From the NCBI GenBank assembly GCA_017456585.1, contig JAFTJD010000016.1:1-64000 (forward strand): a DNA stretch of 64,000 nucleotides. Reading direction: 5' to 3'. Below are positions 18,431-38,399 of the stretch, piece after piece. Within the stretch, counting starts at the first letter, position 1; each line of letters starts with the position of its first letter. Source of the DNA: Lachnospiraceae bacterium. Lineage in GTDB: Bacteria; Bacillota; Clostridia; Lachnospirales; Lachnospiraceae. The position numbers and the translations under genes are program-made. The notes beneath the pieces were generated by a model. That model made no database searches. It was given only the letters and a program-made list of their open reading frames with translations, and had not been told where the DNA came from.

Positions 18431-18459
18431 TTGACAATACGAGGAGAGTGTGATAGTAT
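18431..18459 (+). promoter_or_regulatory. Promoter of the riboswitch leader
   Basis: TTGACA at 18431-18436 and TAGTAT at 18454-18459 are separated by 17 bases. Transcription would begin near 18466, a few bases before the manganese riboswitch. Confidence 0.75.
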
Positions 18460-18473
18460 ACTCACATACACAT

Positions 18474-18570
18474 AAGAGGGAGTAGCAAACACATAGCGCG
18501 CATGTGTTGTAAAACATCGTCAGGACGATAATTTTTAATTATCCGTGTTTTATTAGATTGCAAGACTTTT
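18474..18570 (+). ncRNA. yybP-ykoY manganese riboswitch
   Basis: The segment matches the yybP-ykoY aptamer in order and pairing: AAGAG GGAGTAGC (L1) then a 7-bp hairpin AACACAT/ATGTGTT, then TAAAACA pairing with TGTTTTA around the metal-binding internal loop TCGTCAGGACG / CCG, which is capped by ATAATT/AATTAT, and finally TGCAAGAC with CTTTT closing P1 against AAGAG. The well-studied Bacillus yybP leader has the same GGGAGTAGC, CGTCANNNCG, CCG and GCAAGAC blocks. The family senses Mn2+. The P1 3-prime strand is shared with the terminator that follows, so Mn2+ should turn expression on. Confidence 0.9.
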
Positions 18571-18610
18571 ATTGTAGCTGTTAGTAACAGCTCCGATAAG
18601 AGTCTTTTTT
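18562..18610 (+). terminator. Riboswitch-controlled terminator
   Basis: AAGACTTTTATTG (18562-18574) pairs with CGATAAGAGTCTT (18594-18606) through wobble pairs, around an inner AGCTGTT/AACAGCT hairpin, followed by TTTTTT. The left arm includes the GCAAGACTTTT strand of the aptamer P1, making the two structures mutually exclusive. Confidence 0.85.
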
Positions 18611-18663
18611 ATTTTAATCATAAAACTTTTATCAATCAGGAGTTGTTATTAGCAGAAAAAAAT

Positions 18664-18737
18664 GTTATGCTTATACGCGAGGGTTAAGCTGAAAATCAAC
18701 GTTTAATTCGGCTTACATAACGCTAAGGGGCGTATAA
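18664..18737 (+). ncRNA. Candidate structured leader with interleaved helices
   Basis: Between the riboswitch terminator and hflK three complementary pairs occur: GTTATG (18664-18669) with CATAAC (18716-18721); TTATACGC (18671-18678) with GCGTATAA (18730-18737); and TAAGCTGAA (18685-18693) with TTCGGCTTA (18707-18715). The first two pairs are interleaved, so they form a pseudoknot or two alternative folds. It does not match a leader class I know. Confidence 0.4.
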
Positions 18738-18767
18738 TAATTAGTTACATAGAAAGGTGGAAAAAGA

Positions 18768-19721
18768 ATGGGAACAACTTATGAATTTAACCCGGAACAA
18801 GAAAAGAAAATGAAAAAATTAACTAGCATGGTTAAGCTTGTAATAGCTGTCATTGTTGTATTGGTACTGGCATTGAGCTCAGTATATACTATCGGTGAGC
18901 AGGAACAGGCGGTACTCACAACATTTGGTAAGGCAAGCCCGGTAACAGAATCAGGACTTCACTTTAAGATACCTTTTATACAGAAGGTAGAGAAGGTTAA
19001 TACAACAATCCAGGGATTTGCTATCGGATATGATTCAACCAGTGGAGTAACTATTGAGAACGAATCACTTATGATTACATCAGATTACAATTTTGTAAAT
19101 GTTGATTTCTATGTGGAATACCGTTTCGCAGATCCGGTAAAGGCTGTATATAGTGCAGATGATCCGGTTGCAGTGCTTAAGACAATAACACAGAGCTGTA
19201 TTCGTACAGTTGTAGGTAACTATGATGTCGACAGTGTACTTACAAGCGGAAAGACTGAGATTCAGTCAGCAATTCGTCAGATGATAGTGGATAAGCTTAC
19301 TGTATATGATGTAGGTATTCAGCTTGTTAATATTACAATTCAGGATTCTGAGCCACCGACCACACAGGTTATGGAAGCGTTTAAGGCGGTAGAATCAGCT
19401 AAGCAGGGTAAAGAGACAGCAATCAATAATGCTAATAAATATCGTAATGAGAAGCTTCCTGCTGCAGAGGCAGAGGTAGACAGAATTCTTCAGGATGCAG
19501 AAGCAACTAAGGCTGAGCGTGTAAATGAGGCTGTTGGTCAGGTTGCAAGATTTAATGCAATGTATAATGAATATGTGAAGTATCCAAAGGTTACTAAGCT
19601 TAGAATGTTCTATGAGACCATGGAGGACGTTCTTCCTAACATGAAGATTATAATTGATGGAACAGACGGAAGCTCAGTAGAGATGATGTATCCGTTAGAC
19701 AGCTTTAACGGCACTAATTAA
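18768..19721 (+). CDS. hflK: SPFH/band-7 protein, HflK-like
   Basis: A 317-residue membrane-anchored SPFH-domain protein related to HflK, which with HflC forms large cage-like assemblies around FtsH in other bacteria. One membrane helix lies at about residues 22-42 (MVKLVIAVIVVLVLALSSVY); the SPFH domain follows (IGEQEQAVLTTFGKASPVTE to about residue 215) and then a long helical, Ala/Glu-rich region (NNANKYRNEKLPAAEAEVDR). It starts after GAAAGGTGG and is followed by the HflC-like gene at 14 bases. A manganese riboswitch is upstream. An FtsH gene is present about 24 kb downstream. Confidence 0.82.
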   Translation: MGTTYEFNPEQEKKMKKLTSMVKLVIAVIVVLVLALSSVYTIGEQEQAVLTTFGKASPVTESGLHFKIPFIQKVEKVNTTIQGFAIGYDSTSGVTIENESLMITSDYNFVNVDFYVEYRFADPVKAVYSADDPVAVLKTITQSCIRTVVGNYDVDSVLTSGKTEIQSAIRQMIVDKLTVYDVGIQLVNITIQDSEPPTTQVMEAFKAVESAKQGKETAINNANKYRNEKLPAAEAEVDRILQDAEATKAERVNEAVGQVARFNAMYNEYVKYPKVTKLRMFYETMEDVLPNMKIIIDGTDGSSVEMMYPLDSFNGTN

Positions 19722-19735
19722 GGAGGATATATAAT

Positions 19736-20605
19736 ATGAAAAAAGTTGGAAAAGTTTTAGCTATAATCGTATTGGTTTTAGCTGTAATAGCATTAGGTTC
19801 TTCCATTGTTGTTACACAGGAAGATGAATATAAATTAGTTCGTCAGTTTGGTAAAATCGACAGAGTAATCACAGAGCCGGGACTTAGTTTTAAGATTCCG
19901 TTCCTTGAAACTACAACGGTTCTTCCAAAGAAGATGTTACATTATGACCTTGCAGAGTCAGATGTTATTACTGCTGACAAGAAGACAATGATTACAGACA
20001 GTTATGTTCTTTGGGAGATAACTTCTCCGCTTGATTTCGCTAAGACACTTAACTCTTCAGTGGCAAATGCAGAAAATCGTATCGATGCAGTTGTATATAA
20101 TGCAATTAAGAATGTAATTGGTACAATCGAACAGAATGAGGTAATTACCAGTCGTGATGGTGAGCTTACAGAGCAGATAATGGCAGCTGTCGGCACATCA
20201 ATGGATCAGTATGGTATCAAGATACTTACAGTTGAAACTAAGAGATTTGATTTGCCTGCAGACAATAAGACAAGTGTATATGAGAGAATGATTTCAGAGC
20301 GTGATAAGATAGCAGCAACATATATTGCAGAGGGTGATGCTGAGGCTCAGATTATTATAAACGCTACAGATAAGGAAATTGCAATTATGCTTGCGGAAGC
20401 AACAGCACAGGCAGAGCAACTTGTAGCAGCAGGTGAGGCAGAGTACATGCAGATTCTTTCAGATGCATATTCAAGTGAAGAAAAGGCAGAATTCTACTCA
20501 TTCGTTCGTTCACTTGATGCGGCAAAGGTTTCGCTTTCAGGCGACCAGAATACACTGATACTTCCTAAGGACTCACCTATAGCAGAGATATTCCTTACAA
20601 AATAA
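19736..20605 (+). CDS. hflC: SPFH/band-7 protein, HflC-like
   Basis: A 289-residue partner of the preceding HflK-like protein. An N-terminal signal-anchor (residues 5-25) is followed by the SPFH domain (VVTQEDEYKLVRQFGKIDRV, EPGLSFKIPF, MLHYDLAESDVITADKKTM) and a helical C-terminal region (ISERDKIAATYIAEGDAEAQ, then AEATAQAEQLVAAGEAEYMQ). The order hflK-hflC and the GRIDRVxxEPGLxFKxPF form match HflC. The start follows AAGGAGG. Both proteins should face outside the membrane, regulating membrane proteolysis (family knowledge). Confidence 0.82.
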   Translation: MKKVGKVLAIIVLVLAVIALGSSIVVTQEDEYKLVRQFGKIDRVITEPGLSFKIPFLETTTVLPKKMLHYDLAESDVITADKKTMITDSYVLWEITSPLDFAKTLNSSVANAENRIDAVVYNAIKNVIGTIEQNEVITSRDGELTEQIMAAVGTSMDQYGIKILTVETKRFDLPADNKTSVYERMISERDKIAATYIAEGDAEAQIIINATDKEIAIMLAEATAQAEQLVAAGEAEYMQILSDAYSSEEKAEFYSFVRSLDAAKVSLSGDQNTLILPKDSPIAEIFLTK

Positions 20606-20760
20606 GCGCGAAACGGAAAACCAAGCGACGCGATAGCGGCATTTGGTTTTCCGACGCGGTATGAGCAAGCAATCTGCAAAGCAGATTATAGAGCACGGAG
20701 TGCGTGCTTGTGAGTAAAAAAAGGTGATAGGGAAACCAAGCGACGCGATAGCGCCACTAG
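20606..20760. repeat. Intergenic palindromes with an 18-bp direct repeat
   Basis: GGAAAACCAA (20615-20624) pairs with TTGGTTTTCC (20643-20652). AATCTGC/GCAGATT (20671-20687) forms a second hairpin inside CAAGC (20666-20670) and GCTTG (20706-20710). CCAAGCGACGCGATAGCG occurs exactly at 20621-20638 and again at 20736-20753, so the left half of the first hairpin was duplicated. No T-run follows, so a simple terminator role is not obvious. Confidence 0.7.
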
Positions 20761-35762: not shown

Positions 35763-38399
35763 TTATGATTTGTGTGCTTTCCTTTGAATGAGTTTGACAA
35801 TTTCTACAATCGGGATAACGAGTACGCCGAGTAAGATGGCAACGATGTAGTTTGATAAACCTACGCTGGCGAAGCCGAATGCCTTGGCAAGGAAAGGTAC
35901 CTCACATACAAGCGTTGTAGCAATAAGTGTGAATACTGACGCACCGAGTAACATCTTATTATGGGTTCCGAGCTTGAAGAGACTGCTACGCTGTGAACGC
36001 ATGTTAAAGCTGTGGAATATCTCAGCTACGGACATGGTAAGGAATGCCATAGTCATTCCATCAGCACTTTCAGCAATTTCCCATACACCTGATTCCATAA
36101 AGTGTCCGATGAAATATGAAGCCAATACAAGAACTGATACCATTAAGCCCTGATAAGCAATATCGATGCCCATACCATCAGAGAAGATGCCTGCTTTGGC
36201 TTTTCGAGGTTTACGGGACATGATATCACGCTCTGCTTTTTCCATACCAAGTGCAAGAGCAGGGAAACAGTCAGTTACAAGGTTAATCCAAAGAAGATGA
36301 ACCGGTTTCAAAATAGTAAAGCCTAAAAGTGTGGCTATAAATATACTTAATACCTCACTCATGTTTGAGCCTAAGAGGAACTGGATAGCTTTACGGATGT
36401 TGTCGTATATACGACGGCCTTCTTCTACAGCACCAACTATGGTTGCAAAGTTGTCGTCTGTAAGAACCATGTCAGCAACATTCTTAGTAACGTCTGTTCC
36501 TGTTATACCCATACCGACGCCGATATCGGCTGACTTGATGGAAGGAGCATCGTTAACACCATCACCTGTCATGGCTGTTACATAGCCGGCATCTCTCCAC
36601 GCATTTACTATACGGGTTTTGTGTTCGGGCTGTACACGCGCATATACCGCGATGGACCGGAATTCCTTTTTGAAGGTTTCGTCATCCATGGCATCAAGCT
36701 GTGAACCTGTAATGGCTTTCTTATCGCCTTTAAGAATACCAAGTTCTTTGGCAATCGCGATAGCTGTATCAATGTGGTCACCTGTAATCATGATAGCTGT
36801 AATTCCGGCATGATTACATTCTTCAATAGCTAATTTGACCTCCGGACGAACAGGGTCAATCATACCGCTGAGACCAACGAAGCAAAGGTCTTTTTCGAGG
36901 TCATCTGCTTCATAGGAAGCAGGCTCATTGTCATAAGTTCTCTGCGCACAAGCAAGGACACGAAGTGCTTTATCAGCCATTGCTTTGTTGCTCTTAATAA
37001 TGCTTTGACGGTATTCCTCTGTCATAGGAACAGGTTTGCCGTCTTTAAGGTATGTTGTACATCTGTCTAAGATTACATCCGGTGCACCCTTAGTAAATTG
37101 GATGAAGCCTTCTGTAACTCGATGTACGGTTGACATTAATTTTCTTCCTGAATCAAAAGGAGCCTCACCACTTCTTGGGAAATCCTTTTTGAGATTATAT
37201 TTTTGAAGATTAAGCTTTGCCGCCCATGCAACTAAAGCAGCCTCAGTAGGTTCGCCTGTTACTTCACCATCTTCGCTAAGCTCTGCATCACAGCAAAGAG
37301 CCATAGCGCGTGCAATATAGTTCTCATCTTCTCCGAAGAAATCTACTACAGTCATCTTATTCTGTGTAAGAGTTCCTGTTTTGTCTGAACAGATTATCTG
37401 TGCACAACCCAAGGTTTCAACGGCTGTGAGCTTACGGATGATGGCATTACGCTTAGACATATTGGTAACACCGATTGAAAGAACAACGGTTACAACGGCA
37501 GCAAGACCCTCGGGGATAGCTGCAACTGCAAGTGAAACTGCCACCATAAAGGAACTAAGAACTGTTTCAAGTTCAAAACCGCCTGCACGGATAATCTGTA
37601 CACCGAAAATAATAGCACAGATAACAAGAACAAGCCATGTAAGTACTTTGGAAAGCTGGCTAAGCTTAAGCTGTAAAGGTGTCTGACCTTCCTTAGCATT
37701 AGCAAGGGCATCTGCAATCTTACCCATTTCTGTATCCATGCCGGTTGCAGTGATAACAGCTTTACCACGGCCATATACTACGGTTGAACCCATGTATACC
37801 ATGTTCTTACGGTCACCGAGAGGTATATCCTGGGCAGATTCCTTAAGATTAATAATATCTATAAACTTGGTTACGGGAACGGATTCACCGGTGAGAGCCG
37901 CTTCCTCGATCTTTAAACTGGCATTCTCTATCAATCTACCGTCTGCCGGAACTGCATCTCCTGCTTCCAGTACAACGATGTCGCCAACTACAAGGTCTTC
38001 GCTTGGAATGGATACCAGTTTGCCGTCTCTTATAACCTTAGAGGTTGCTGCGGACATCTCCTGCAACGCTTCGATAGCTTTCTCTGCTTTGTTTTCCTGA
38101 TATACACCAAGAACCGCATTAATAATTACAACGGCGAGGATGATAATAACATCAGCAAAGCTTTCATTCTCGATTACAGCAAGTACACCACTTATGGCAG
38201 CTGCGGCAAGAAGAATGATAATCATAGGATCCATGAGCTGGTTAACAAAACGTTTAAGTAAAGAATCCTTCTTTGCTTCTGCAAGTCTGTTTTTGCCGTT
38301 TGCCTCAAGGCGTTTAACTGCTTCGCCGGAGGAAAGACCGTCTGCTGAGGCATTGATTTCACCTAGTACGGCATCAATGTTTTCGCAATAATATTTCAT
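35763..38399 (-). CDS. Calcium-type P-type ATPase
   Basis: An 878-residue cation pump of the SERCA/PMCA-like P2 group. Phosphorylation site DKTGTLT begins at Asp339; the actuator has ALTGES; the nucleotide domain has KGAPDVIL; the hinge is MTGDGVNDAPSIK. Membrane ligands match calcium pumps: PEGLAAVV in M4, SNMSEVLS in M5 (Asn and Glu) and NLVTDCFPALALGME in M6 (Asn and Asp). AAAGGAGC precedes the ATG. A hairpin TTTAAGGATT/AATCCTTAAA lies upstream of the start (about 38427-38457). The gene sits between oppA and oppBCDF in the opposite direction. Confidence 0.92.
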   Translation of the reverse strand: MKYYCENIDAVLGEINASADGLSSGEAVKRLEANGKNRLAEAKKDSLLKRFVNQLMDPMIIILLAAAAISGVLAVIENESFADVIIILAVVIINAVLGVYQENKAEKAIEALQEMSAATSKVIRDGKLVSIPSEDLVVGDIVVLEAGDAVPADGRLIENASLKIEEAALTGESVPVTKFIDIINLKESAQDIPLGDRKNMVYMGSTVVYGRGKAVITATGMDTEMGKIADALANAKEGQTPLQLKLSQLSKVLTWLVLVICAIIFGVQIIRAGGFELETVLSSFMVAVSLAVAAIPEGLAAVVTVVLSIGVTNMSKRNAIIRKLTAVETLGCAQIICSDKTGTLTQNKMTVVDFFGEDENYIARAMALCCDAELSEDGEVTGEPTEAALVAWAAKLNLQKYNLKKDFPRSGEAPFDSGRKLMSTVHRVTEGFIQFTKGAPDVILDRCTTYLKDGKPVPMTEEYRQSIIKSNKAMADKALRVLACAQRTYDNEPASYEADDLEKDLCFVGLSGMIDPVRPEVKLAIEECNHAGITAIMITGDHIDTAIAIAKELGILKGDKKAITGSQLDAMDDETFKKEFRSIAVYARVQPEHKTRIVNAWRDAGYVTAMTGDGVNDAPSIKSADIGVGMGITGTDVTKNVADMVLTDDNFATIVGAVEEGRRIYDNIRKAIQFLLGSNMSEVLSIFIATLLGFTILKPVHLLWINLVTDCFPALALGMEKAERDIMSRKPRKAKAGIFSDGMGIDIAYQGLMVSVLVLASYFIGHFMESGVWEIAESADGMTMAFLTMSVAEIFHSFNMRSQRSSLFKLGTHNKMLLGASVFTLIATTLVCEVPFLAKAFGFASVGLSNYIVAILLGVLVIPIVEIVKLIQRKAHKS

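Follow-up and report, generated by a model that had tools for sequence, protein, structure and literature searches.

The hflK-hflC locus and its leader

The sequence studied is a window of 64,000 nt (the whole stretch of DNA that was analysed) on contig JAFTJD010000016.1 (GCA_017456585.1) of a gut Lachnospiraceae bacterium. Judged from its sequence features, a manganese-class riboswitch is located directly 5' of an hflK-hflC gene pair, and the same predicted pairing is recurrent among many relatives. The features of the locus are as follows.

18431-18459, + strand: sigma-70-type promoter, TTGACA-17 nt-TAGTAT with an extended TG before the -10 element (10/12 matches)
18468-18576, + strand: yybP-ykoY (manganese) aptamer in its three-way-junction form (model R3, 66.2 bits; model R1, 80.3 bits; covariation)
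18473-18478, + strand: 5' strand of the switch helix P1, UAAGAG, pairing with 18566-18571 (97% of alignment cells paired, 91 distinct sequences)
18479-18486, + strand: 5' strand of L1 and GC clamp, GGAGTAGC (GGGAGTA in 129/130 matches)
18488-18508, + strand: P2 hairpin (all 6 model pairs vary on both sides)
18510-18552, + strand: P3/P3.2 arm (from the sequence and alignment A2)
18519-18526, + strand: metal-binding loop L3, GUCAGGAC (from the sequence and alignment A2; binding role assigned by class)
18560-18566, + strand: GCAAGAC, 3' side of the clamp, L1 and start of the P1 3' strand
18562-18610, + strand: intrinsic terminator, its 5' arm holding the P1 3' strand (18566-18571), ending in a T tract
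18768-19721, + strand: hflK-type SPFH protein, 317 aa (Pfam Band_7, 5.5e-28; TIGR01933, 235.5 bits)
19736-20605, + strand: hflC-type SPFH protein, 289 aa (Pfam Band_7, 1.3e-27; TIGR01932, 164.5 bits)

The hflC gene starts 14 nt past hflK. Both proteins score above the NCBIfam equivalog cut-offs (159 bits for TIGR01933 and 134 bits for TIGR01932), in agreement with an earlier, sequence-only reading of this DNA that had named an SPFH pair as the next genes. In their adjacency and in these scores they resemble the HflK/HflC modulators of FtsH. FtsH is modulated by HflKC, without which some proteins become less stable (PMC12005517). A conserved small gene between the terminator and hflK, considered in the earlier reading as a possible true target, is absent; the only frame there has 14 codons and is not conserved, and in a congener the gap from terminator to hflK is only about 40 nt. 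Within the spacer of the window (18616-18767), a stretch of some 100 nt contains inverted repeats, TTATACGC...GCGTATAA; it has no ORF, is single-copy in the genome and is missing from the congener. As a candidate second switch, the region 18612-18770 was rejected (fold z -0.9, no other copy in the genome, absent from the congener). Another intergenic stretch rich in inverted repeats, CGGAAAACCAA...TTGGTTTTCCG, lies 3' of hflC at 20606-20760 and is single-copy in a DNA search of the genome.

Promoter and terminator accompany the aptamer in most matches of its family. A promoter with at least 10/12 matches was found within 75 nt upstream of 112/130 family matches, compared with 0/129 shuffled sequences. 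The terminator hairpin of the window comprises 45 nt (18562-18606) and folds with -22.9 kcal/mol (z -7.2). P1 and the terminator are mutually exclusive because 18566-18571 serves both; the terminator strand that the sequence-only reading described as shared with the aptamer is the 3' strand of P1, inside the terminator 5' arm. A predicted hairpin that starts in AGAC-P1' and ends at the T run follows 122/130 matches and 5/130 when the downstream sequence is shuffled, and a terminator sharing P1 is present in 19/19 SPFH-linked cases. The mechanism of the class has been measured in L. lactis (PMC11087558, PMC6754395), where P1.1 becomes more stable with Mn2+ and the terminator overlapping it is prevented (PMC11087558); by analogy, the leader in the window is presumed to set P1 against its terminator in the same way.

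Structure and class of the aptamer

The core of the aptamer, GGGAGTAGC...CGTCA-GGACG-P3.2-CCG...GCAAGAC, has a single occurrence in the window, between the promoter and the terminator hairpin. Both sequence hallmarks of the yybP-ykoY class are present, GGGAGUA at 18478-18484 and GUCA at 18519-18522, and both are conserved across relatives. After UAAGAG the leader continues as GGAGUAGC, which makes up L1 and the clamp. The P3 strands are 18510-18518 and 18545-18552, with P3.2 at 18527-18543. The L3 adenine that discriminates Mn in this class (PMC6754395) has its counterpart in A18522. The GCAAGAC strand is kept in relatives as GC[A/G]AGAC, or as AGUGAGAC with a compensated clamp. The P4 arm is missing, the P3 3' strand leading to GCAAGAC through 7 nt with no P4 hairpin. 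P4 is not obligatory for class membership, because S. pneumoniae mgtA has a described three-way-junction form (Martin et al. 2019, as cited in PMC9495176).

With L. lactis yoaB and the RF00080 class the window shares L1 (GGGGAGUA), the GUCA core of L3, the clamp and the GCAAGAC strand, together with a weak P1 that shares its 3' strand with a terminator and exporter-type targets in sister copies. It differs from that class in that it lacks P4, is unrecognised by the RF00080 model and precedes an SPFH pair instead of a transporter. The S. pneumoniae mgtA switch (Martin et al. 2019, as cited in PMC9495176) and the streptococcal RNA SSRC10 resemble the window in the three-way junction, the terminator platform and the order CGUCA..ACG..CCG..GCGAGAC, whereas the mgtA switch controls a Ca/Mn P-type ATPase.

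The structure was evaluated in alignment A2 of 93 leaders, whose fitting to that structure inflates the absolute figures: 86% of cells pair, 501 cells are changed on both sides compared with 185 ± 13 after shuffling, and the covariation score is 0.475 compared with 0.176 for shuffled sequences and ≤ 0.12 with slid partners. Changes on both sides are seen in 21/27 pairs, and taken together the helices P1, P2 and P3 have strong covariation support. The clamp pair beside L1 is G-C in 68 sequences and A-U in 23, with no exception. P1 barely varies, as expected for a helix that doubles as terminator sequence. The element of the window is conserved in the congener with compensatory changes, P2 being rebuilt there from different sequence. 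Simple folding gave the aptamer alone no stability excess over shuffles, the result to be expected when a fold is tertiary and depends on metal.

HflK homologues were collected both from relatives and from named genome contigs; in about 16/110 loci the same aptamer core was found 5' of the gene. Model R1, built from 15 hflK-type leaders including that of the window, matches 142/397 Lachnospiraceae genomes and gives its 80.3 bits on a site that is part of its own training. Since R1 and R2 both contain the window sequence and would be circular, the class claim rests on R3, which was built from 44 leaders of P-type ATPases and Na/Ca exchangers only, with zero SPFH loci. R3 matches the window at 18468-18576 with 66.2 bits (E 1.2e-11), its sole match in the 64 kb. 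This demonstrates homology to the exporter-linked copies of the class, and the aptamer that the sequence-only reading had placed at 18474-18570 is real. R3 also recognises all 27 SPFH-linked leaders supplied and matches 0/9 of the included hflK loci judged switch-free.

The Rfam model RF00080 (curated cut-off 45 bits), by which the sequence-only reading proposed to verify the aptamer, gave no match in the window or the genome, and none at E=10 on 391 bases. It was over its cut-off in 0/98 relatives and, as a sensitivity control, found 0/20 Lachnospiraceae leaders that precede P-type cation ATPases. Because these ATPase-linked copies are missed too, the miss is judged to be a limit of the detection model in Lachnospiraceae, neither a refutation nor the failure of a defining RNA feature. 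Sites in relatives that RF00080 scores below its cut-off are matched by R1, R2 and R3 in 8/8 cases, and the SPFH-linked leaders are therefore of the same class as RF00080's own matches; in 557 kb from other loci, R2 matched the RF00080 sites and nothing else. In practical terms, the Rfam model overlooks a riboswitch across a major gut family (142/397 genomes by R1; 0/98 relatives by RF00080). The nearest Rfam family to the window is RF02617 (SSRC10, cut-off 56 bits), whose match falls below significance (16.6 bits, E 0.55). RF02617 was over its cut-off in 0/150 relatives and at E ≤ 0.001 in 12/150. This family is typed as an sRNA and looks like a streptococcal three-way-junction member of the yybP-ykoY class. 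No other Rfam cis-regulator was found 5' of 20 switch-free hflK loci.

Target genes and distribution of the pairing

The first gene after each of the 130 best-scoring family matches was recorded. The SPFH share of these counts is inflated, R1 having been built on SPFH leaders; each SPFH case given to R3 was confirmed.

P-type cation ATPase, 49/130
HflK-type SPFH protein, 14/130
uncharacterised small protein, 14/130
Na/Ca exchanger, 11/130
OadB, a Na+-pump subunit, 9/130 (L129, L188, L190 and others)
flotillin-type SPFH protein, 4/130
CNNM/CorC protein, 3/130 (L213, L223, L240)
YccF, 2/130
another SPFH protein, 1/130
others, 20/130; no gene in reach, 3/130

The earlier statement that this class normally controls exporters holds for the 49 P-type ATPases and 11 Na/Ca exchangers, and has to be widened to take in SPFH genes, which form a regular minority of the targets in this family. 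Among new matches outside the family, the strongest are P-type ATPases, Na/Ca exchangers and OadB. In four genomes (G182, G217, G288, G409) an SPFH gene and a P-type ATPase each have the switch. The genome of the window has a second switch, with an L3 of the canonical AGUCAACAUCCUGG type, at G000:C27:8092-8193 (L285:193-294; 40.5 bits), which precedes a Na/Ca exchanger (PF01699). The predicted occurrence of one switch class before both a cation exchanger and hflKC in one genome is the most direct link between the two kinds of target. On these computations the RNA class, the antitermination-type platform and the hflK-hflC target all find support, the assignment of class and target being well supported. 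A known RNA class thereby appears to have a new, recurrent kind of target, the SPFH genes.

Some further observations concern the targets. A P-type cation ATPase, a target typical of the family, is encoded in the window at 35763-38399 on the - strand and is here without a switch (one R3 match in the window). A KUP-type K+ transporter follows the switch in one case (L207). The uncharacterised small protein has about 145 aa, gave no Pfam match in the two representatives tested, and is directly followed by YccF (PF03733) in 13/14 loci, a second non-transporter operon behind a Mn switch. Loci of this type are L138, L144, L170, L171, L191, L199, L215, L218, L224, L229, L233, L239 and L248.

The distribution of the switch was mapped on an HflK tree of 103 protein rows, of which 25 bear a switch and 78 are coded without one; two of the latter are doubtful (L206, with a switch farther upstream, and L046, where the contig is cut). 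The mapping needs 11 changes, at least 8 of them on well-supported branches. As read from this tree, the switch is one that was gained and/or lost repeatedly at hflK loci, the majority of which lack it. With 78/103 rows switch-free, control by the switch is not essential to HflKC. The association with hflKC, which the sequence-only reading suggested following into related genomes, recurs in several distinct branches of the HflK tree and extends to other SPFH subfamilies. L206 (256-600) retains a remnant of the YccF-partner protein between the switch and hflK, which suggests replacement of the target behind one switch. At the other HflK loci the switch lies about 80-350 nt before hflK with no intervening gene.

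Proposed control of hflK-hflC and other explanations

It is very probable, on the combined sequence evidence, that a transcription-controlling yybP-ykoY manganese riboswitch drives the two-gene hflK-hflC unit and is ON with Mn2+. The class and anatomy of the aptamer, the promoter, the shared terminator strand, the target genes and the recurrence are read from the sequence; Mn2+ as the ligand, the ON direction in vivo and the physiological purpose are presumed. Transcription would start just 5' of the aptamer. With no ligand, the P1 3' strand would be drawn into the strong intrinsic terminator and transcription would stop. Mn2+ would bind between L1 and L3 and stabilise P1, the terminator would be blocked and hflK-hflC transcribed. 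The cell would thus make the SPFH pair at high cytoplasmic Mn2+, along with the cation exchanger under the second switch copy of the genome. In Mn overload the pair would probably serve FtsH-linked quality control of membrane proteins or membrane scaffolding.

Production of HflKC at high Mn2+ is plausible as membrane quality control in view of the literature on FtsH, TerC proteins and YqgP. In B. subtilis, MeeY (YkoY, a target of the Mn riboswitch) and the pair YqgP-FtsH connect FtsH-dependent membrane quality control with Mn2+ (PMC10550928, PMC7231995). FtsH is essential in B. subtilis without its Mn-handling TerC proteins, with which flotillins co-purify (PMC10550928), and YqgP and FtsH act under Mn excess (PMC7231995). 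B. subtilis differs in that its switch controls a TerC protein, YqgP is a protein Mn2+ sensor, and no riboswitch-linked SPFH gene is reported. The literature searched yielded no case of metal-dependent hflKC control, nor any report joining yybP-ykoY with SPFH proteins, or a riboswitch and Mn2+ with HflK; yybP-ykoY and a flotillin occurred in the same paper for the co-purification only (PMC10550928). An SPFH target appears to be unreported in the literature searched, and an earlier mention in the 2015/2019 primary papers on the class is possible.

The recurrent pairing suggests that hflK-hflC membrane scaffold genes are switched on by manganese. Whether the Lachnospiraceae switch heads a wider Mn2+-induced membrane-maintenance regulon of HflKC, flotillin-type and other SPFH proteins and the YccF-operon protein is evenly balanced on the predicted targets. 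Such a regulon would tie SPFH function in Lachnospiraceae to metal overload. What HflKC and other SPFH proteins do physiologically in bacteria is described as unclear (PMC12005517), and a ligand-specific switch offers a concrete, testable inducer for their genes. The pairing of switch and SPFH genes agrees with the B. subtilis data on Mn2+, TerC proteins and FtsH (PMC10550928, PMC7231995).

Three other explanations were weighed against manganese control of hflK-hflC. With the same class and platform, the SPFH-linked copies might answer mainly to Ca2+, to alkaline pH with Mn2+ or to another transition metal. The three-way relative of S. pneumoniae is reported to have a higher affinity for Ca2+ than for Mn2+, although Mn2+ activates transcription more (PMC9495176); the mntP and alx switches of E. 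coli need alkaline pH with Mn2+ for their full response (PMC9603457), and Na+ pumps and exchangers (OadB, Na/Ca exchanger) are among the targets found. Such a change of signal is nevertheless unlikely, given that L1 and the discriminating L3 adenine (GUCA) are conserved in exactly the same way in SPFH-linked and exporter-linked copies and that the exporter-trained R3 recognises the SPFH-linked ones.

The linkage could instead be due to chance or inheritance, hflKC having been placed later behind a switch that once belonged to another gene, as the remnant of another target (the U protein) in L206 and the mostly switch-free state of hflK loci would allow. Coincidence is unlikely because the pairing recurs with three SPFH subfamilies; together with the at least 8 changes in switch presence these point to repeated recruitment, and at the other HflK loci no gene lies in the roughly 80-350 nt between switch and hflK, which makes this history highly improbable. 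Least probable is an explanation of the leader as a short terminated RNA like Streptococcus SSRC10, which is a discrete RNA on Northern blots (PMC3675131) and, typed as an sRNA, is the best Rfam match of the window at a score not significant alone, or else a constitutive attenuator, ligand control of hflKC being incidental: SSRC10 itself is immediately followed by a calcium transporter gene (PMC3675131), which fits a riboswitch, P1 and terminator share a strand in 122/130 leaders, and the genes that follow on the same strand consistently encode cation transporters and SPFH proteins.
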